NCBI RefSeq assembly: GCF_000092425.1
Contig: NC_014221.1
Coordinates: 2,981,001 to 3,045,000 of the forward strand
Length of the DNA: 64,000 nucleotides
Source: Truepera radiovictrix DSM 17093
Lineage (GTDB): Bacteria; Deinococcota; Deinococci; Deinococcales; Trueperaceae
Direction of reading: 5' to 3'
The translations under genes and the position numbers were made by a program. The number at the start of each line of letters is the position of its first letter. Position 1 is the first letter of the stretch. Of the stretch, positions 35,229-47,627 are shown piece by piece. The notes under the pieces are model-generated. The model had not been told where the DNA came from and made no database searches. It saw only the letters and a list, made by a program, of their open reading frames with translations.

Positions 35229-35609
35229 CTATGGCGTGGGTGTGGCGGTGAGCACCTCGCGCACCGTACGCTTAAAGCGCGGGAGGTCGAGAGGTTTGGC
35301 GAAGCAGGCGTAGACGCCGTGCTGCGCGAGCGCCTCTTCGGTGAGGGGGTGCGCGCTCACCACCAGCTTGGCAACGCCGCGTTGCGACCACACAGGACAC
35401 GTGTGGAGGCGGCGGAGGAGCTCGAGACCGTCCATCACCGGCATGTCGAGGTCGGTGATGAGCAGCTTGGTGTCGGGGTGGTGCTCGAGCTGCTTAAGCG
35501 CCGCCGCGCCGTGTTCGGCGAGCGTCACCGCGTAGCCTTCACGGCTCAGGACGCTCCGTAAGAGAAGCCGCGTGGTGGGGTGGTCGTCGACGACGAGGAT
35601 GGTTGCCAC
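35229..35609 (-). CDS. Single-domain response regulator (receiver only)
   Basis: 126 residues, a complete CheY-like receiver: acidic pair D9-D10 ('VVDDH'), phospho-acceptor Asp in 'LLITDLDMPVMDG' near residue 54, Ser in 'VVSAHP' and Lys in 'CFAKPLD'. No output domain. It could relay phosphate or bind a target. The nearest histidine kinase is the LOV kinase 2 kb away on the same strand, but a thiolase and another gene lie between. TAGACT (35622-35617) is 7 nt before the GTG start. Confidence 0.92.
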   Translation of the reverse strand: MATILVVDDHPTTRLLLRSVLSREGYAVTLAEHGAAALKQLEHHPDTKLLITDLDMPVMDGLELLRRLHTCPVWSQRGVAKLVVSAHPLTEEALAQHGVYACFAKPLDLPRFKRTVREVLTATPTP

Positions 35610-37017: not shown

Positions 37018-37464
37018 CTAGGTCCGGTACGCCAAAGACGAGGTTTTCGAGACACCTCGGGCGCTGGCACCATGGGTACCATGCGCGCGCCACGAGGTCT
37101 CGTCGGCCGCCGTCGCCGGATCGGCGGTCGCGCCACCCTCACGGGGGCTGTCGGCGCGGCCGAGGGGTTGGAGAAACACGAGCAGAGCCCCCTCGACGGT
37201 GCACTCGAGCCAGAGCACCTTCGCGTTTAGGGGCGGGCGCTGAGGGCGCCCCTCAGCCCGCCTCTCAGGGCGGAGCAGCACGCTGCGCCCCGCGTGATAG
37301 AGGTCAGCGACGTCGCACGCCAAGCGGTAGAGCGCGCCCACCCCCGACGCGCAGCCGAGCAGGCGCGGCTCCGTGCGCCACACCAGACACGTGTGACGCT
37401 CGCCGAGCTCACCTCCGACGGGGTAGAGCTGCCCCAGCTGCCCGCAGAGCCGTGCGTAGGTCAC
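37018..37464 (-). CDS. Unknown protein, about 148 aa
   Basis: Not recognised. Codon third positions are mostly G or C as in neighbouring genes, which supports coding. 'TCLVWRTEPRLLGCASGVG' and 'RLACDVADLYHAGRSVLLR' look like a folded domain of about 110 residues; the last 40 are Ala/Thr-rich and disordered. Start suggested at GTG 37464 after GGTGAG; TTG 37494 is possible. Lies alone between the thiolase and the LOV kinase. A CCCCTAGGGG palindrome is at 37496-37505. Confidence 0.45.
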   Translation of the reverse strand: MTYARLCGQLGQLYPVGGELGERHTCLVWRTEPRLLGCASGVGALYRLACDVADLYHAGRSVLLRPERRAEGRPQRPPLNAKVLWLECTVEGALLVFLQPLGRADSPREGGATADPATAADETSWRAHGTHGASARGVSKTSSLAYRT

Positions 37465-37633
37465 AGTCGCCTCACCTGAGCCCCACACCTCCAACCCCTA
37501 GGGGCTGGGGGCGCCCTGAGAGGCGGGCGCATCCGCTTCAGGCGGTGCGCCTTGAGACGCGTCGTCGAGGGGGTGGTGCGGACCACACGCCAGTTTAACG
37601 GTTCGCGGGCGGTTGAGGCGCGCTTGCACTGCG

Positions 37634-39091
37634 CTACGAAGGCACCTCGAACAGGCACGTCACCACCGTCCCCTCACCGCGACGCGAGGTGAGCTCGAGC
37701 TGCGCGCCAATAAGGCGCGCGCGGTAGTCAAGAAGGCGCAAACCGATGCCCCGCCGCAACCCCGCCTCGACCTGCGGCTGAAAGCCGCAGCCGTCATCTT
37801 GCACGGTGAGCGCGACGAGGCCATCGGTGCGCGCGAGGCTAATACCGATAGCGGAGGCCTTGGCGTGCTTTGCGGCGTTCGTGACAGCCTCCTGAGCGAT
37901 GTAGTAGAGCTGCGTCGCGAGCTCGAAGTCGTTTACGTAGATGGGTTCTTCGTAGACGAAGCTGCAGGGGACCCCGTAGAGCTCCTCGACTTTGGTCGCA
38001 AGCCCCCCGAGCGCCATCATCAGCCCATTGGCGCTGCGCTGAACGGGGGCCATCCCCTGGACGACGGTACGCAGGCTCGTCACCCCAGCCTGCACGAGGC
38101 CGTAGAGCGCCTCGGCGCGCTCGGCGAGGTCGTCGTTACGCGACGCCAGCGTGCGCGCGAGCGCTTTGGCCTGGAGCGCCGTACCGATCAGGTGTTGCTG
38201 AAGCGCGTCGTGCAGTTCGCCCGCGATGCGCTGCTGCTCGCGCGCGCTGATGTCGAGCGCTTGGCGCTCTAAAAGGCGCCTTTCGGTGACGTCGCGCTGC
38301 GTCGAGACCCAGTGGGTGATGCTGCCCAGGGCGTCGCGGATCGGCGCGACGTGCCACGCCAAAATAAAGGGGGAGCCGTCCTTGCGGTAGTTGATGGTCT
38401 CCCCCTGAAAGACGCCGCCGCGACCTAGGCGCCGCCGCATCCGGTTGAGCACCGCGCGGCTCGTGCGCGGCCCCTGAAACATCCGCGGCGTTTTCCCGAG
38501 CACCTCTTCGGGTGCGTACCCCGTCATCGCCGAGAACGCCCGGTTGACGTAGAGGATGCGCGGACCGGGGCGCTCGAGCGCCGCTTCGGTGACGATGACC
38601 GCCTCGTTGGCGTGCTCGAGCGCCTGCGACATCAGCGCCTGCTCCGCCTGCGCCGCCTTGAGCAAGGTGATGTCGTTTTGCACCCCCAAAAAGTAGACGA
38701 GACTTCCTGCTCGCCAGATCGGGGTGATATGCAGCTCGTTCCAGAACATCGCGCCGTCTTTGCGGTAGTTGCGCAGCTCGACGCGGATCCCCTGCCCCCG
38801 CGCGATGGCCGCGCGCAGCGCCGGAAGGGCCGCCTGGTCGGTGTCGCGACCTTGCAAAAAGCGGCAGTTGCGCCCTAGCACCTCGTCGCGCGCGTACCCC
38901 GTCAACCGCTCGAAGCCGCGGTTGACGTAGATGATGGGGTTGTCGGGCAGGCGCGGGTCGGTGATCAGCACGACGTTGTTGGCCGCCTGCACCGCCTCAC
39001 GGAGCATCTCGAGCTCGTCGCGCTCGCTCATCGCGGCGAGGCGCCCCCTAATCTCCTCGGCCAAGCTCTCTGGTGGCTCGATCCGCCTCAC
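37634..39091 (-). CDS. LOV-PAS sensor histidine kinase (NarX/HisKA_3 type)
   Basis: 485 residues, soluble. Residues 35-145 are a LOV domain: 'GRNCRFLQG' with flavin-adduct Cys76, plus N75, R77, Q80, N108, N118 and Q138 for FMN binding. Residues 155-272 are a second PAS with the LOV-like 'GKTPRMFQGP' that lacks the Cys. A short linker leads to HisKA_3 with phospho-His294 in 'AGELHDALQQHL' and an HATPase with 'QEAVTNAAKHAKAS', 'DDGCGF' and 'GIGLRLLDYRA'. Predicted blue-light-controlled kinase; the usual partner would be a LuxR-type regulator, none of which is nearby. Start GTG 39091 uncertain; ATG 39031 also keeps all domains. Confidence 0.93.
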   Translation of the reverse strand: MRRIEPPESLAEEIRGRLAAMSERDELEMLREAVQAANNVVLITDPRLPDNPIIYVNRGFERLTGYARDEVLGRNCRFLQGRDTDQAALPALRAAIARGQGIRVELRNYRKDGAMFWNELHITPIWRAGSLVYFLGVQNDITLLKAAQAEQALMSQALEHANEAVIVTEAALERPGPRILYVNRAFSAMTGYAPEEVLGKTPRMFQGPRTSRAVLNRMRRRLGRGGVFQGETINYRKDGSPFILAWHVAPIRDALGSITHWVSTQRDVTERRLLERQALDISAREQQRIAGELHDALQQHLIGTALQAKALARTLASRNDDLAERAEALYGLVQAGVTSLRTVVQGMAPVQRSANGLMMALGGLATKVEELYGVPCSFVYEEPIYVNDFELATQLYYIAQEAVTNAAKHAKASAIGISLARTDGLVALTVQDDGCGFQPQVEAGLRRGIGLRLLDYRARLIGAQLELTSRRGEGTVVTCLFEVPS

Positions 39092-39224: not shown

Positions 39225-39300
<76 letters not shown>

Positions 39301-40843: not shown

Positions 40844-41662
40844 TTATCCAGCGGCGCTACCCCGCCGACTGTTCTCCACGTCCGCTTCCCCCCCCGCAGC
40901 GCGGCGCTCCCGAAGGACGCTGCGGAGCAAAAAGGCGTACCCGACGACGCCGATCAGCGCGAAGGAAAACCACTGCAGCGCGTAGGAGAGGTGCGGGCCG
41001 CCGTCGAGCTCGGGTGGGGGTAAGGGGCGCGGGAGCGGCCCCTCTTGGGCCGGCGACTGCGCGGTCAGCTCGAGGTAGACGGGGTCGAGCCGGTACGGCA
41101 GCTGTGCGCTGAGGCGCTCGGTATCGACCCAGAACACCGCGTCGAGCTCCCCCGTCGGCGGGTCCTTCGCCCCCAAGCCGGCCGGCTGCGTCTGGCGCGG
41201 CAAGAGCGTTCCGCTCACCGTCACCGGACCCGCCGGCGGCGCCGCCTCGGCGACGGGCGGCGTGTCGAGCTCAAAAGGGACCCAACCGCGGTCGACGAGC
41301 AGGGCGCTGCCGTCCTCGAGCAGGAGCGGGGTGAGCACGTGGTAGCCCGGTTGCCCGTTGAGGGCGCGCGACCGCAAGAGCACCTCGCGCGCCGTGTCGA
41401 AGCGCCCCGTCACCTCGGCGCGGCGGTAGGCGATCGACGCTGCGTCCTCGGGTGGGGCCTCGAGCGACAAACGCGCGCGCAGCTGCGGGTAGGGTTCCGG
41501 CTCGGCGGCGAGGCGCATGCCGACGAGGGCGTTGTAAGCGCCCCGCTCTTCGTGGCGCCGCAGCTGCCAGAAACCGAAGTTGACAAACAGCACCACGAGC
41601 GTTAGCGCGAGCAGGTGGCCGGCCAACCAACGCGGTGAGAGGAGTTTATGGGTAGGGTTCAT
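40844..41662 (-). CDS. SURF1 family cytochrome oxidase assembly protein
   Basis: 272 residues with membrane helices at both ends ('WLAGHLLALTLVVLFVNFGF' and 'YALQWFSFALIGVVGYAFLL'), and SURF1 motifs 'GFWQLRRHEER', 'GYHVLTPL' and 'LLVDRGWVPFE'. It helps insert haem a3 into subunit I. It follows the oxidase subunit gene but lies beyond that gene's terminator, so it depends on readthrough or its own promoter. Confidence 0.92.
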   Translation of the reverse strand: MNPTHKLLSPRWLAGHLLALTLVVLFVNFGFWQLRRHEERGAYNALVGMRLAAEPEPYPQLRARLSLEAPPEDAASIAYRRAEVTGRFDTAREVLLRSRALNGQPGYHVLTPLLLEDGSALLVDRGWVPFELDTPPVAEAAPPAGPVTVSGTLLPRQTQPAGLGAKDPPTGELDAVFWVDTERLSAQLPYRLDPVYLELTAQSPAQEGPLPRPLPPPELDGGPHLSYALQWFSFALIGVVGYAFLLRSVLRERRAAGGEADVENSRRGSAAG

Positions 41663-41711
41663 CGGTAACCTCTCGCGGGCGGCGTTCGCGCCGCCCCTAG
41701 CGGACTAGCCG

Positions 41712-41735
41712 AAAAAAGGGCCGCGCGCGCGGCCC
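41712..41735 (-). terminator. Terminator of the cytochrome oxidase operon
   Basis: Palindrome GGGCCGC-GCGC-GCGGCCC (41718-41735) followed on the minus strand by T6 (41717-41712). Strong intrinsic terminator. Confidence 0.9.
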
Positions 41736-41755
41736 TCGGGGCGTCCCGGGGGGAC

Positions 41756-44467
41756 TTAGTTGCCGCCCCCCTGCGGCTGTGCCTGGGGTTGTGGTTGTGG
41801 CGGTGACTGTGGTTGCGACTGCGGTTGCGGGCTCCCTTCGGGGATCGCCGGCGTCCCCTCCTCACCGGCCGCAGGACCCGGTTGCACGAAGTCGGGCTCC
41901 GCCGGCGCGGTCTCCGTGGGGGGCGGGACCGCCGGGGTGGTCGACTGGGGCAGCGTCGGGATCGCTTGCTCCGTCCCCTCTTCGCCCATGATGGTGTCTT
42001 GCATGTAGACGCCGAAGGGGTCGCCGGGGTTACGGACGACCTCCGGCCCCTGATAGAAGATCGGCAGCACGTAGACGAGCAGCAAGACGACGATCCAGAC
42101 GCCGTCGACGAGGTGCCAGTAGGCCACGGGGACCTCGACGCCGTTATGCAGCTTCGGCGTGAAGTGACCCCTTAGGCCCCGCACGAACGCCAAACCGAGC
42201 ATGAAAAGGCCGATCACGACGTGCAGCATGTGCAGCCCCGTGATGGTGAAAAAGGCCGACAGGTAGAGGTTTTGGCGCGGGTCGTAGTGAGCGAGGATCT
42301 CACGCCACTCGATGCCGGTAATGCCCAAAAAGACGGCGCCGAGGCCGAGCGTCCCGGCGAGCAACCCCAAGAAGGTCTTGCGCTTGTCCTTGATGAGGTC
42401 GTGGTGCGCCACGTGAACCGTCACCGAGCTCGAGACCAGGAAGAGCGTGTTCAGTAGCGCTAGGCGCAGGCTCGGCAGCTCCTCGGGGAAGTTCATCCGG
42501 CCCGAGAAGAGCAGGAAGAGGTACGCCGAGAAGATCATTAAAAAGAGCGCGACCTCCGAGCCCAGGAACCAGTAGGCGAACATCATGCCGTTATTCACGC
42601 GGGTGCGGTTGTGGTGTTCGACCTCGAGCTCGATCTCGGGGCTTTCAAAGGCGGGTTCGCGCGCCCACATCACGATGGCGAAAAGCGCCAGCAGCAACCC
42701 GCCGAAGAGCAGCGGCCCCTGTAGGATCAACCCGACGAGAAAGAGCGTCAGGCCGACCGTCGAGACAAACGGCCAGATGCTCGGGTTCGGCAGGTGAATC
42801 TCCGAGGCGCGCAGCGCGGCGTCCTCCTTAGGCGGCCACAGCCCCAGCTTGATCCAGTCGTAGAGCGGGCGCTCGCTGCGAAACTCCTCGGGCAACTTCA
42901 CGCCGAAGTTGTAGGCCGGCGGCGGGCTCGCCGTGGCCCACTCGAGCGTGTAGCCGTAGCCCCACGGGTTGGGGCCCGCCGTCTTCGGCCCGCGCAGGCT
43001 GATGATCACGTTGTAGACAAAGAGGATAAAGCCGAAAGCGAGCATCAGCGAGCCGAGCGAGGAGATCGCGTTCCAGACCCCCCAACCGAGCCCCTCCTGG
43101 TAGGTGTAGATGCGGCGCGGCATCCCGAGCAGCCCCAGCACGTAGTGCGGGAAGTAGGTGACCATAAAGCCGAAGAACCAGAGCCAGAAGAGCCACTTGC
43201 CCAGGCGCTCGTTTAAGAAGCGGCCGGTCATCTTGGGGAACCAGTAGAAGATCCCCGCCATGATGATAAAGATGCTGCCGCCGATCAGGATGTTGTGGAA
43301 GTGCGCCACCACCCAGTACGAGTCGTGCATCTGCCAGGTAAAGGGCACGAGCGCGAGCGCCACCCCGGTAATCCCCCCGATGGTGAAGAGGAAGATGAAC
43401 CCCAGGCTCATCAGCATGGCGGTGTTAAAGACGATCTTGCCCTTCCAGATGGTCGCCAGCCAGTTAAAGATCTTGACCCCCGTGGGCACCGCCACGAGCA
43501 TGGTGGTAAAGGCGAAGACGGAATTAAGCAGCGGGCTCGCCGTCGAGGTGAACATGTGGTGCGCCCACACGAGGTAGCTCACCAGGGCGATCCCCATGGT
43601 GGCGCCCGCGAGCGCGACGTAACCGAAGATCGGTTTGCGGGTAAACGTCGGCAGCATCTCGGAGACGATGCCGAACCACGGCAGCACCATGATGTACACC
43701 GCCGGGTGCGAGTAGAACCAGAAGAGGTGTTGGTATAAGACCGGGTCGCCGCCGATCGCGGGGTTGTAGAGGCTGATCCCGGTCATCCGGTCCATGAGGG
43801 TCAGCATGGTCGCGGCGGTGATCCCGGGGGTCGCGAGCACCTGCAAAAACGAGGTCGCCATCACCGCCCAACCGAACATCGGCAGCTGCCGCCACCCCAT
43901 CCCCGGCGTGCGGAGGTTGACCATCGTAACGATGAGGTTGATCCCCCCGAAAACCGACGAAAAGCCGACGAGCTGCAACCCCAAGATCCACGAGTCGACC
44001 CCGGCTTGCGGTTGGTACTCGGAGCTGGCGAAGGGGAAGTAGGCGACCCAGCCCCCTTCGGCCCAACCACCAAAGAGCGGCGCGGCGTAGAGCGTCAGCC
44101 CCCCGAAGAGGTAGAGCCAGTAGGCAAACGCGTTCATCCGCGGCAGCGCCATGTCGCGCGCCCCGATCATCAGCGGGATAAAGTAGTTCGCGAACCCTGC
44201 AGCGATCGGGATAATAAACAGAAACTGCATGGTGCTGCCGTGCATGGTGAGCACCTGGTTGTAAAACTGGCCGACCAGCACGTCCATGTTGGGGCGCGAG
44301 AGCTGCAACCGGATGAGGAGCGCCTGCAGCCCGCCGAAGGCGAAGAAGACGAAGCTGGTGACCAGGTACATGATGCCGATCTTTTTGTGATCGACTGTGG
44401 TCAAGAGGTCGAGCCAGAGCGGCTTGGTGCGAGCCGTCTGGGGAACGGTGCCGGCGGTGATGCTCAT
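41756..44467 (-). CDS. ctaD: caa3-type cytochrome c oxidase, fused subunits I and III
   Basis: 903 residues. Residues 1-550 are subunit I with twelve helices: haem and CuB ligands in 'HGSTMQFLFIIPIAAG', 'FWFYSHPAVYIMVLPWFG', 'WAHHMFT' and 'VVAHFHNILIGG'. YSHP in place of G-H-P-E suggests the A2 type, as in Thermus. Residues about 600-835 are subunit III helices ('MFAYWFLGSEVALFLMIF', 'GLHMLHVVIGLFMLG', 'YWHLVDGVWIVV'). The last 65 residues are Pro/Gln-rich and probably disordered. Reduces oxygen to water while pumping protons. Overlaps subunit II by 4 nt. Confidence 0.96.
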   Translation of the reverse strand: MSITAGTVPQTARTKPLWLDLLTTVDHKKIGIMYLVTSFVFFAFGGLQALLIRLQLSRPNMDVLVGQFYNQVLTMHGSTMQFLFIIPIAAGFANYFIPLMIGARDMALPRMNAFAYWLYLFGGLTLYAAPLFGGWAEGGWVAYFPFASSEYQPQAGVDSWILGLQLVGFSSVFGGINLIVTMVNLRTPGMGWRQLPMFGWAVMATSFLQVLATPGITAATMLTLMDRMTGISLYNPAIGGDPVLYQHLFWFYSHPAVYIMVLPWFGIVSEMLPTFTRKPIFGYVALAGATMGIALVSYLVWAHHMFTSTASPLLNSVFAFTTMLVAVPTGVKIFNWLATIWKGKIVFNTAMLMSLGFIFLFTIGGITGVALALVPFTWQMHDSYWVVAHFHNILIGGSIFIIMAGIFYWFPKMTGRFLNERLGKWLFWLWFFGFMVTYFPHYVLGLLGMPRRIYTYQEGLGWGVWNAISSLGSLMLAFGFILFVYNVIISLRGPKTAGPNPWGYGYTLEWATASPPPAYNFGVKLPEEFRSERPLYDWIKLGLWPPKEDAALRASEIHLPNPSIWPFVSTVGLTLFLVGLILQGPLLFGGLLLALFAIVMWAREPAFESPEIELEVEHHNRTRVNNGMMFAYWFLGSEVALFLMIFSAYLFLLFSGRMNFPEELPSLRLALLNTLFLVSSSVTVHVAHHDLIKDKRKTFLGLLAGTLGLGAVFLGITGIEWREILAHYDPRQNLYLSAFFTITGLHMLHVVIGLFMLGLAFVRGLRGHFTPKLHNGVEVPVAYWHLVDGVWIVVLLLVYVLPIFYQGPEVVRNPGDPFGVYMQDTIMGEEGTEQAIPTLPQSTTPAVPPPTETAPAEPDFVQPGPAAGEEGTPAIPEGSPQPQSQPQSPPQPQPQAQPQGGGN

Positions 44468-45615
44468 CGGTCGCCCTCCATGCTAGCGATCTCGGTTTCC
44501 GAAAGGGATCCCGCCTCGTCGACGGGGTAGCCAGAGGCGTTCACGTGGTTTTGCGGCCCCTCGCCGCGAATGGCCGCGCGCAGGTCGAACTCGGGGAGCG
44601 TGAGCGTCTCCAAGTAGGCGGCGATGCGCTCCGCCTCCTCCTGGCTGAGCCCCAAGTTGGGCATCGCCACCCCCGGTTTGACGGTGTCGGTAAAGCGCAG
44701 CCAGCGGATCATGTTCTCCCGGGTGTTGGGGAGCATCCCCGCGGCGATCGAGGTGCGCGAGCCGATGTGCGACAGGTCGGGCCCCGCGCGGTTGTAGGCG
44801 TTGACCCCCTGCACCGCGTGGCAGTTGATGCACCCCTTTTGCACAAAGAGCTGCGCCCCCTCCTGCGCCAGCGCGTCCTCGGGGGGCGCGGCCGGTCGCT
44901 GCGCCGCCGCCACCCACGCCTCGTAGTCTTGCGGCGAGAGCACCACGAGGCGCAGGCGCATGTTGGCGTGCGAGTCGCCGCAGATCTCGGCGCACTGGCC
45001 GTAGAACACCCCCTCGCGTTCGGGGGTAAACCACATCGCCCGCTGGTTGCCGGGAATAAGGTCGGTCTTTCCGGCCACCTGCGGGATCCAGAAGGAGTGC
45101 ATGGTGTCGCCCGAAGCGAGGTTGAGCCGCACGGGTTGACCGACGGGCGCGACGAGCTCGTTGGCGGTGACGATGCCCAGCTCGGGGTAGACCATCTCCC
45201 ACCAGAACTGCCGCCCGACGACGTTGACTTCAAGGGCGTCCTCCGGGGCGGCGTAACCCTCGAGCCGGTAGATCGCGCTCAGCGTCGGCACGAGCAAAAT
45301 AGCCAAGATGATCAGCGGAATAATCGTCCAAGCGATCTCGAGCTTGAGGTTGCCGTGGGTCTGCGGCGGCTCCTCGTCGTGGTTGCGGTCGCGCAGACCG
45401 CCGATAATCCCCGCTGTCATAAACGCCACGACGACCGCGAGCACAAAGATGCTAAAGCCCATAACGAGCCAGAAGAGCTTGGAGATCTCGCGGGCGTTGG
45501 GTGAGGCGACGTCTAAAATACTGGGCGTTGGCAGGCTCGGGAGCGCAGCGAGCGCGCCGCCCCCCAGGCCTAGCACCAGCACCCCCAAAGCGAGCAGAAC
45601 CGACTTTTTCTTCAC
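44464..45615 (-). CDS. ctaC: caa3-type cytochrome c oxidase subunit II with fused cytochrome c
   Basis: 383 residues. Signal peptide or anchor at the start, two membrane helices, then the CuA domain with ligands in 'GDTMHSFWIPQ' and 'GQCAEICGDSHANM'. The C-terminal cytochrome c domain has 'CINCHAVQG' near residue 275 and axial Met in 'PGVAMPNLG'. It accepts electrons directly into subunit I. The start is GTG 45615 after AAAGGAGAGC; upstream in-frame sequence is not part of the protein. Confidence 0.95.
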   Translation of the reverse strand: MKKKSVLLALGVLVLGLGGGALAALPSLPTPSILDVASPNAREISKLFWLVMGFSIFVLAVVVAFMTAGIIGGLRDRNHDEEPPQTHGNLKLEIAWTIIPLIILAILLVPTLSAIYRLEGYAAPEDALEVNVVGRQFWWEMVYPELGIVTANELVAPVGQPVRLNLASGDTMHSFWIPQVAGKTDLIPGNQRAMWFTPEREGVFYGQCAEICGDSHANMRLRLVVLSPQDYEAWVAAAQRPAAPPEDALAQEGAQLFVQKGCINCHAVQGVNAYNRAGPDLSHIGSRTSIAAGMLPNTRENMIRWLRFTDTVKPGVAMPNLGLSQEEAERIAAYLETLTLPEFDLRAAIRGEGPQNHVNASGYPVDEAGSLSETEIASMEGDR

Positions 45616-45625
45616 GCTCTCTCCT

Positions 45626-46522
45626 TTATGCCAGGGCGCGGTCGAGCGCCATGGTGACAAATAAAAGCGCCAGATACGACATCGAATACTTGTAGAGGCT
45701 TAGCGCCGTCGGCCGGTCGACCCGCTCGGCGCGCCGCACCGCCACGAGCAGCTTAGCGACCCGCAGCAAGAGCAGCACGTTGAGCACCAGAGCCGCTAGA
45801 AAATAGGCTACCCCAAACTCGTGGAGCGCAAACGGGATCAGCGTCAAGACGACGGTGAGCAGGGCGTACATCACCATCTGCAAGACCGTGGCGCGCTCAC
45901 CGATCACCGCAGGCGCCATCGGCACCCCGACCGCCTGGTAGTCGTCTTTGATAAGGAGCGCGAGCGCCCAGAAGTGCACCGGCGTCCAGAAAAACACCAG
46001 CGCGAAGAGAAACCAGGCGAGGAGGCTGAGTTCGCCCGTCACCGCGGCCCACCCCACGAGCGGCGGCACCGCCCCGGCGGCGCCGCCAATGACGATGTTC
46101 TGCCAGGTGGTGCGCTTAAGCCACATCGTGTAGACGATGACGTAAAAGGCGATCCCCGCCCACGAGAGGAGCGCGGCCAGCACGTTCGAGGCGAGCGCGA
46201 TCACGACGAACGAGAGAAACGTCAGCGCGGCGGCGAAAAGGAGCGCGTCGCGCGTCGAGATCACCGACGTGACCGTCGGCCGGCTCGCGGTGCGCTTCAT
46301 CCGCAGGTCGATGTCGCGGTCGTAGACCATGTTGAAGACGCCCGCCGCCCCCGCTGACATGTAACCGCCGACGAGCAGCCCCAAGAGCGGCACCCACCCG
46401 GGGAAGCCGCTCGCCGCGATAAACATCGCGCCGACGGTCGTCAGCAGCAGCAGGCTGATGACTTTGGGTTTGGTGAGCGTAAGGTAGTCGCGCCACGTCG
46501 CGCGCGCGGGGGCGGGGTTCAC
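45626..46522 (-). CDS. ctaB: Protohaem IX farnesyltransferase (haem O synthase)
   Basis: 298 residues with eight to nine membrane helices and the prenyltransferase Asp-rich motifs: '[19 protein letters not shown]' near residue 65 and '[13 protein letters not shown]' near 195. Attaches a farnesyl group to haem B. The GTG start overlaps the ctaA stop (GTGA), so the two haem A enzymes are co-translated. Confidence 0.96.
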
Positions 46523-47523
46523 ATCAGGCTCCCGTCGCCCTGGGGTTCGCGCAGGGGCGCACCGGGCGCGCGCGAGGCCAGGCGGTGCAGCTGCAGCGCG
46601 CGCGGCTCGGGCGTGTCGCCCAGGGTGTAGACCGCGAACACCGAGAGCAGCGCAAACGCCGCTACGGCGAGCCCCAGGTGCAGCACCTGCAGGGTCACGG
46701 GGGCGAGCAGGGCGAGGTTAAGGGTACCCACGAGCAGCTGCACCACGTAGACGCCGAGCAGGGTCTGCGCGGTGCGTTTAGCGCGCGCCACCGGTTTGAG
46801 CCACCAGGAGAGCCCCAGGCTCAAAAAGAGGTAGAGCCCCACCGAGATGGCAATGAGCGGGTGCAGGATGCGCAGCCGGATCAGCAGGTGCGACGTGGGG
46901 TCGAAGTCGGCGGCGATGCCCGCGGCGAGGCTTTCGGAGGGGAAGATGGTGTTGCCCATCGCCGCGATGCCCCCCGAGAACATCAGCACGAGCATCCCCA
47001 CAAGGCCCACTGCGAGCACGGTCGTTACGAGCGGTTGCGCGCCCGCGCGCACGGGGCCCGGCGCCCTCGGCAGGGCGTAGACCAGCGCGGCGCAGAGGGC
47101 GCCGACGAGGAGCAGCGAGTTGACGAGGTGCGTCGCGACCATCAACCCGCGCCCGACGGTCGCGTTGTCCCCCGTCAGGCCGAGCAGCACGGTCGCAGCG
47201 CCCAGAAGGGCCTCGACGATGAGGAAGAAAAAGGCGAGCGACGCCCAGGTAAAGAGCGGCGGGTTCTCCCGCTGAAAGCGCCACGCCCGCACGAGCAGCC
47301 ACAGACCCAACAGGAGCGCAGCTAGCGACAGCAGGCGGTGGGAAAACTCGATGAGCGTCTCTACGCTCGGGGCGAGCGGCACCACCTCGCCGTTACAGAG
47401 CGGCCAGTGGCGGCCGCAACCGGCGCCCGAACCCGTCGCGCGCACCACGGCGCCCTGCAAGATCACAATCGCGTTGACGACGACGGTCAGCCACGCGAGC
47501 GCTGGCGTTGACAGTTTCAGCAT
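46519..47523 (-). CDS. ctaA: Haem A synthase
   Basis: 334 residues, eight membrane helices. Haem-binding and conserved stretches: '[20 protein letters not shown]' near residue 25 (paired Cys), 'EFSHRLLSL', '[14 protein letters not shown]' and '[13 protein letters not shown]'. Oxidises haem O to haem A. Start set at ATG 47523 after GGAAGGGCGGAAGAGG. First gene of the minus-strand cta operon (ctaA, ctaB, ctaC, ctaD). Confidence 0.95.
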
Positions 47524-47627
47524 CCTCTTCCGCCCTTCCTGGCCACTCCCCTTGTGCGGTGAATCGGTTGGTCGATACATACCATGGTTTGCTCGAGGAC
47601 CTTCTTGCGCAGGAGCCTGAGACCTTC

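Follow-up and report, generated by a model that had tools for sequence, protein, structure and literature searches.

The stretch of DNA analysed here (the window) comprises 64,000 nucleotides of the genome of the radiation-tolerant bacterium Truepera radiovictrix DSM 17093, a single contig of 3,260,398 bases that is 99.99% complete. One open frame exactly fills positions 37634-39091, where an earlier note, made from the letters alone, had placed a complete LOV photoreceptor histidine kinase. The frame runs on the minus strand, which that note had left unstated; read on the plus strand, the same interval holds three internal stops. Its codon-position GC (0.69/0.46/0.87) is similar to that of the neighbouring genes. 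By its sequence, this is a real and functional-looking gene. Its domains and surroundings are given in Table 1. The ORF directly downstream has a homologue (40.6% over 96 aa) in a genome of the same genus (G001), at the syntenic place before a thiolase gene. It is probably a real gene, judging by this resemblance, and a candidate at most for a place in a light system. Upstream of the kinase, past an SDR gene, a cytochrome oxidase cluster occupies 40844-47580, in which family models recognize a fused subunit I/III and SURF1, and inspection by eye suggests subunit II and other genes; no connection of the cluster to the kinase was seen.

Table 1. Coordinates of the kinase gene, its domains, neighbouring features in the window and related loci (G000, T. 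radiovictrix; L, extracted loci).
Feature	Coordinates	Strand	Remarks
LOV-PAS-HisKA_3-HATPase_c histidine kinase gene	37634..39091	minus	GTG start at 39091, 485 aa
LOV domain core	38666..39004	minus	residues ~30-142; GRNCRFLQG, N108, N118, Q138
Cys76 codon (adduct-forming cysteine)	38864..38866	minus	
Second PAS domain (PAS2)	38285..38629	minus	residues ~155-269; LOV fold, Pro202 at Cys position
HisKA_3 dimerisation/phosphoacceptor domain	38039..38239	minus	residues 285-351; His294, HDxxxQ (LHDALQQ)
HATPase_c domain	37646..37918	minus	residues 392-482; N box NAAKH 405, G1 DDGCGF 432, G2 GIGL 448
158-aa ORF	37018..37494	minus	directly downstream of kinase; no Pfam match
Stand-alone CheY-like receiver	35229..35609	minus	two ORFs further downstream
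tRNA-Lys (CTT)	39225..39300	plus	upstream of kinase, divergent; limits kinase 5' region
Paralogue and rib locus	L089:3347-8586 = G000:C1:311346-316585		paralogue divergent from ribD-ribE-ribBA
FMN riboswitch	L089:6589-6731	minus	RF00050, 107 bits, E 1.8e-24
Tyr-for-Cys LOV-GerE protein	L098:1192-1983		protein also present in L012 and at L141:1762-2529
LOV-HisKA_3 locus of G018	L138:6500-8059		stand-alone receiver gene closely follows kinase

The 485-aa product gives eight Pfam family matches in all, among them two PAS stretches (PAS_9, E 2e-41), HisKA_3 (E 3e-11, 44.1 bits, cut-off 24) and, following it, HATPase_c (E 3e-12, 47.3 bits, cut-off 26.4). The first PAS domain carries the GxNCRFLQ motif with the adduct cysteine in a PAS/LOV fold. 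Each of the residues named in the earlier note, including Cys76, is present, and the full set of LOV residues that we looked for was found (G73, N75, C76, R77, F78, L79, Q80, R93, N108, N118 and Q138), with the flavin-contact Asn, Asn and Gln at the last three positions. Residues 41-140 are modelled with a pLDDT of 96-98 in every ten-residue block. All of the best 60 solved chains match via the LOV domain, at E values of 2e-37 to 7e-28, far past chance. They include YF1 (4gcz, 2.4e-37), YtvA (2pr5, 9.7e-35), Brucella LOV-HK (4.7e-34), a short Pseudomonas LOV protein (7r5n, 6.9e-34) and oat phototropin LOV2 (2v0u, 9.8e-30). The resemblance to plant phototropin LOV2, earlier described as nearly residue for residue, holds for the flavin-contact motifs only; overall, YF1/YtvA and Brucella LOV-HK are nearer. 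An origin from a plant-LOV2-like domain was rejected, since among solved structures bacterial LOV sequences are the closer ones. Two curated NCBIfam models, each matched over two stretches, score below their cut-offs: YtvA_fam with 248.7 bits against 250 and BluLightHisKinLov with 223.3 bits against 450.

In the kinase core the H, N, G1 and G2 boxes are intact, as is the HDxxxQ phosphatase motif (HDALQQ at 294-299), and the core looks active from these motifs. An HWE/HisKA_2 core is absent from the eight Pfam matches, which sets the protein apart from the LOV-PAS-HWE kinases of the Brucella type. In HisKA_3 kinases HDxxxQ is essential for the phosphatase reaction (PMC6798134), and a two-way kinase/phosphatase would therefore be expected here. 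The combination of a LOV photoreceptor with a HisKA_3/HATPase kinase, as first proposed from the letters, is borne out by both sequence and predicted fold. The full-length model has a mean pLDDT of 88.7, with 312 of 485 residues at or above 90 and 49 below 70; as a monomer with a pTM of 0.53, it does not give a reliable domain arrangement. A single helix, residues 269-317, leads from PAS2 into the kinase. The first hit in a fold search with this model is Brucella LOV-HK (6ph4, E 8.9e-27), followed by NifL and then YF1, with MmoS in 25th place.

The length of the connection between sensor and kinase bears on how a signal might pass. Coiled-coil linkers obey a heptad rule. The Asp at the end of the PAS domain and the phosphoacceptor His are 27 residues apart in four kinases, namely the window protein, its paralogue, the G001 orthologue and HK1927, a further PAS-HisKA_3 kinase of T. 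radiovictrix; in L094, a direct fusion of LOV to HisKA_3 from another genome, they are 34 apart, one heptad more. The two spacings are equal modulo 7, which lends modest support to coiled-coil transmission as read from these sequences. The distance could be measured in five of eight HisKA_3 kinases, three of the five being close homologues; two others have the His with no PAS-end motif nearby, and one has no His pattern.

How would light reach the kinase? Adduct formation, N5 protonation, a glutamine flip and coiled-coil transmission are described for LOV kinases, and FMN is the usual LOV chromophore (PMC6798134). Blue light would create an adduct between the flavin, probably FMN, and Cys76, a step established for LOV domains in general. 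Protonation of N5 would then flip Gln138, as in established LOV kinases, and the signal would pass along the helix after LOV to the LOV-like PAS2 and through the continuous helix 269-317 to the HisKA_3 bundle. There it would alter the balance between phosphorylation and dephosphorylation of a response regulator, in either direction. We regard it as very likely that the gene encodes such a blue-light LOV sensor kinase, acting through HisKA_3 on a response regulator; the protein is probably soluble and dimeric. Against this reading stand the orthologous kinase of G001, which is without LOV, so that the kinase core needs no light, the failure of position and distribution to link a regulator to the gene, and the NCBIfam blue-light scores below their cut-offs.

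Is PAS2 a second LOV domain? Its description in the earlier note as a Cys-less LOV-like copy fits the fold, the nearest solved relatives and the proline in place of the cysteine, but only five of nine diagnostic residues. PAS2 retains G199, R203, Q206, N234 and Q265; the equivalents of N75, F78, L79 and N118 are replaced by T, M, F and L, and because these four are lost, flavin binding is doubtful. The filter for Cys-less LOV domains of Yee et al. 2015 asks for at least nine of ten other conserved residues. Scored on the nine named ones, neither PAS2 of the window (5/9) nor that of the paralogue (7/9) reaches it. Among solved structures PAS2 alone is best matched by the Chloroflexus LOV family (6rhf, E 7.8e-25). 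Its model (mean pLDDT 92.3) has LOV structures as nearest folds, Meiothermus 9vf7 first (E 2e-13) and Chloroflexus 7oo9 at an rmsd of 1.1 over 107 columns, and was built from an alignment in which three of eight rows are LOV, which may bias it towards LOV. In a tree of 33 domains PAS2 groups with its counterparts in G001 and the paralogue and with L093 (94/94), outside the LOV rows. By these residues and relatives PAS2 descends from a LOV domain but does not clearly qualify as a Cys-less LOV.

Two alternatives turn on this domain. In the first, PAS2 is a ligand-free structural spacer and the protein a plain LOV kinase. We give this reading slightly less than an even chance: four of the nine flavin-diagnostic residues are gone and the central PAS domain of Brucella LOV-HK is given as of unknown function (PMC8092228), yet R203, Q206, N234 and Q265 are all kept, the paralogue's PAS2 keeps more of the set, and in G001 it is LOV that is absent and the PAS2 part of the sensor that is retained. 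In the second, which we consider unlikely, the protein is mainly a flavin redox or oxygen sensor in the manner of NifL and MmoS, with flavin in both PAS domains and light as a side effect or a joint input. PAS2 alone does match MmoS (3ewk, E 1.4e-22, in 16th place behind the Chloroflexus LOV family), the NCBIfam NifL model, to which the protein as a whole scores 142 bits against a cut-off of 242, finds its best stretch in PAS2, NifL and MmoS both appear in the full-length fold search, and Cys-less LOV domains are able to respond to flavin reduction (PMC4682037). A pure redox sensor would, however, have no use for the cysteine and photocycle residues that the LOV domains of both paralogues retain, and the four losses in PAS2 weigh against a flavin there. 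We keep to the blue-light kinase, in which PAS2 is at least a signal-transmitting spacer and possibly a second flavin or redox input.

The same genome encodes a second LOV-PAS-HisKA_3-HATPase protein (L002), 54% identical over residues 28-479, with the cysteine kept. It lies beside riboflavin genes, from which the window gene itself is remote: ribD, ribE and ribBA were recognized by NCBIfam models above their cut-offs, and the 387-base gap between the predicted starts of the paralogue and ribD contains an FMN riboswitch reading towards ribD. Does this arrangement recur? Searched with RibD, RibE and RibBA (tblastn, E<=1e-8), 142 sequences (141 loci and the window) gave matches in the paralogue's own locus only; many of the loci have flanks of 6 kb at most or end at contig ends. 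Rfam at gathering thresholds found no FMN riboswitch in L138-L141. Because rib neighbours were seen at no other LOV locus examined, the adjacency may be due to chance. The literature search surfaced one review on riboflavin production and, as far as the retrieved text goes, nothing that connects LOV genes with FMN riboswitches. A coupling of blue-light sensing to provision of the chromophore it depends on is still an obvious hypothesis of regulation at this locus, and one open to direct test.

Matches to the kinase occur at E<=1e-30 in seven of 61 genomes (own, genus, family and order) and at E<=1e-25 in 12 of 111 genomes of the class. Six of these 12 carry the LOV cysteine motif (G000, G018, G024, G056, G068 and G082); G001 has a LOV domain with Tyr for Cys, and in the other five the frame that was read shows none. 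The G001 kinase core is the ortholog of the window's (HK 51.9% identical, versus 43.4% for the paralogue), and in place of LOV two other PAS domains precede its PAS2-like domain. In the 33-domain tree one of the two joins PAS domains from four T. radiovictrix PAS-GerE regulators in a single set (support 100/100), and the second has so long a branch that it cannot be placed. The LOV domain of G001 precedes a GerE helix-turn-helix in a LuxR-type regulator. It reads GRNYRFLQG, keeps all nine other diagnostic residues, and groups with both T. radiovictrix LOV domains and that of G018 (93/87), with weak inner order (81/73, 83/80); no set marked firm includes the window LOV. The copies in G001 (L098) and in an uncultured Truepera MAG (L012) count as one observation, and the tyrosine, read from a single metagenome assembly, could be an assembly error. 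Compared with the helix-turn-helix domains of the four PAS-GerE proteins, that of L098 shows 57-77% identity. These four (L099, L100, L102 and L103) show no receiver, have the same type of helix-turn-helix as the LOV-GerE protein, and in three cases share the linker EVMSDTAWFS. A LOV-GerE protein with the cysteine is found in G024 (L097), whose LOV domain groups with that of Longimonas (99/95), so that the LOV domains of the family need not all share one origin. In G018 a 391-residue open frame (L094) encodes a LOV-HisKA_3 kinase without PAS2.

Judged by domain order and these groupings, kinases and DNA-binding regulators have probably exchanged sensor domains. A wider scheme would join all of these observations: LOV freely exchanged, the rib-linked paralogue reporting blue light together with FMN supply and tuning flavin biosynthesis, and the Tyr-LOV on the LuxR-type protein of the sister species acting as a flavin redox (radical) switch. 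We hold this scheme to be improbable as a whole; if true, one could watch within a single set of organisms how a photoreceptor becomes, or reverts to, a redox sensor.

LOV together with HisKA_3 was seen only in T. radiovictrix (twice) and in G018 among the sequences examined. The genome_contigs loci, the best 80 of 204, hold 63 LOV ORFs, 62 found by motif pattern plus L062; L035, which has the LOV motif, was left out of the HisKA_3 scan. HisKA_3 is absent from the 14 LOV ORFs tabulated individually, and in the other 49 it lies outside the 25 most-matched families (singletons included), which leaves room for a lone unlisted case. Cys-less LOV-type motifs occur in three records titled cyanobacterial (NSRFLQ in L053, NGRFLQ in L073 and L086).

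Which response regulator would the kinase serve? An adjacent NarL/LuxR-type regulator is usual for HisKA_3 kinases, though not strictly defining. Neither the window gene nor the paralogue has one beside it, and near the window gene there is only the CheY-like receiver. We followed the suggestion that a LuxR-type partner might be found by co-occurrence; the test named no partner, none of four candidates being convincing by distribution. These were three REC-GerE regulators with no adjacent kinase and the CheY-like receiver, with L105 and L107 followed over 60 relatives and L108 and the receiver over 20. L104 and L106, REC-GerE proteins beside HisKA_3 kinases of their own, and L101, with a receiver that looks odd by eye, were left out. 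HisKA_3 kinases at 847771 and 1927914, likewise with no adjacent regulator, compete for the same candidates. L105 (G000:C1:2896665-2897345) was rejected as LOV-specific, since 56 of the 60 relatives (with its own, 57 of 61 genomes) have a 66-87% identical homologue, and most of them gave no LOV kinase in the 61-genome search. Two genes separate it from a gene for a MerR-B12-binding regulator, and the surrounding region (L129:3-4346, G000:C1:2893002-2897345) also holds a possible Crp-type ORF, recognized by eye. L107 (G000:C1:1917562-1918194) was not supported: it is widespread in the family, but its best match in G001, where the orthologous kinase core occurs, is only 36%. L108 (G000:C1:1653014-1653673, L159) shares its type of helix-turn-helix with the LOV-GerE protein of G001 and the PAS-GerE proteins of T. 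radiovictrix. It has an in-frame TAA in that helix-turn-helix, and among the 20 relatives G002 and G011 have its closest homologues, at 50% and 49% identity, with 41% in G001. The CheY-like receiver is the only candidate with a distribution fitting the kinase core among 20 relatives: a strong homologue (56%) occurs in G001 only, the next reaching 44%. It is a possible partner of the kinase. Synteny in G001 gives no tie to the kinase; the block of the 158-aa ORF homologue, thiolase, receiver and phosphodiesterase, with a radical-SAM gene nearby, lies on a different contig from the kinase there.

Could the kinase then be a relic, degenerate or left unpaired, whose output no longer works? The missing NarL-type neighbour and the stop codon within the orphan L108 would fit such a state, but the catalytic boxes are intact, codon use is normal, and the reading frames of the paralogue and of the orthologous core in G001 are likewise uninterrupted. 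We judge this very improbable and retain the working blue-light kinase as our interpretation.

That the organism responds to light is plausible, because its genome yields four microbial rhodopsin matches (G000:C1 195283, 2443077, 3167074 and 3205288, one of them in a short 182-aa frame), two photolyase/cryptochrome-family matches and the MerR-B12-binding regulator, which we take to be of the LitR/CarH type. Its phylum is named in a figure legend of a survey of phyla bearing LOV or BLUF proteins (PMC4844311). Our literature search returned no paper naming Truepera together with 'LOV domain'; by title and opening of the abstract, none of those on Truepera and 'photoreceptor' deals with a LOV protein of this organism. 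No described LOV member of the HisKA_3 class was found in that search.

Among the outputs of prokaryotic LOV receptors, histidine kinases are the most frequent, and the HisKA_3 class includes DesK, which is one of the two kinases best studied by structure (PMC6798134). The LOV-PAS-kinase layout is known; this version of it, its partner and the sensor swapping in its family are without description in the literature searched. The gene would supply a native LOV kinase of the HisKA_3 class, predicted to be soluble, and its relatives provide, ready-made, comparisons that in optogenetics generally have to be constructed: LOV with or without a second PAS domain before the same type of kinase, the same core with LOV replaced, and Tyr for Cys.

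How does the protein compare with established systems? Brucella abortus LOV-HK (6ph4, 6pps) shares the LOV-PAS-kinase order and heads the full-length fold search, but carries an HWE-family kinase (PMC8092228), unlike the HisKA_3 kinase with HDxxxQ found here. YF1, an engineered soluble LOV histidine kinase, provides the best LOV sequence match; it is a chimera with the FixL kinase, according to its entry name, and lacks a second PAS domain, while natural Bacillus YtvA has a STAS output (PMC10949197). Meiothermus ruber Mrub_1259 (9vf7), the first structural match of PAS2, also matches the LOV domain of the full model, but a possibly related homologue (L096, family f4) combines LOV with further PAS domains and HisKA, not HisKA_3. 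Halobacterial BAT-LOV* has proline at the cysteine position, as does PAS2, although PAS2 keeps fewer of the conserved residues than are asked of Cys-less LOV domains (PMC4682037). The flavin redox sensors NifL and MmoS have PAS2 in their sequence and fold neighbourhood, but LOV domains match it better, MmoS ranking 16th by sequence and falling outside the 50 fold matches listed for PAS2.
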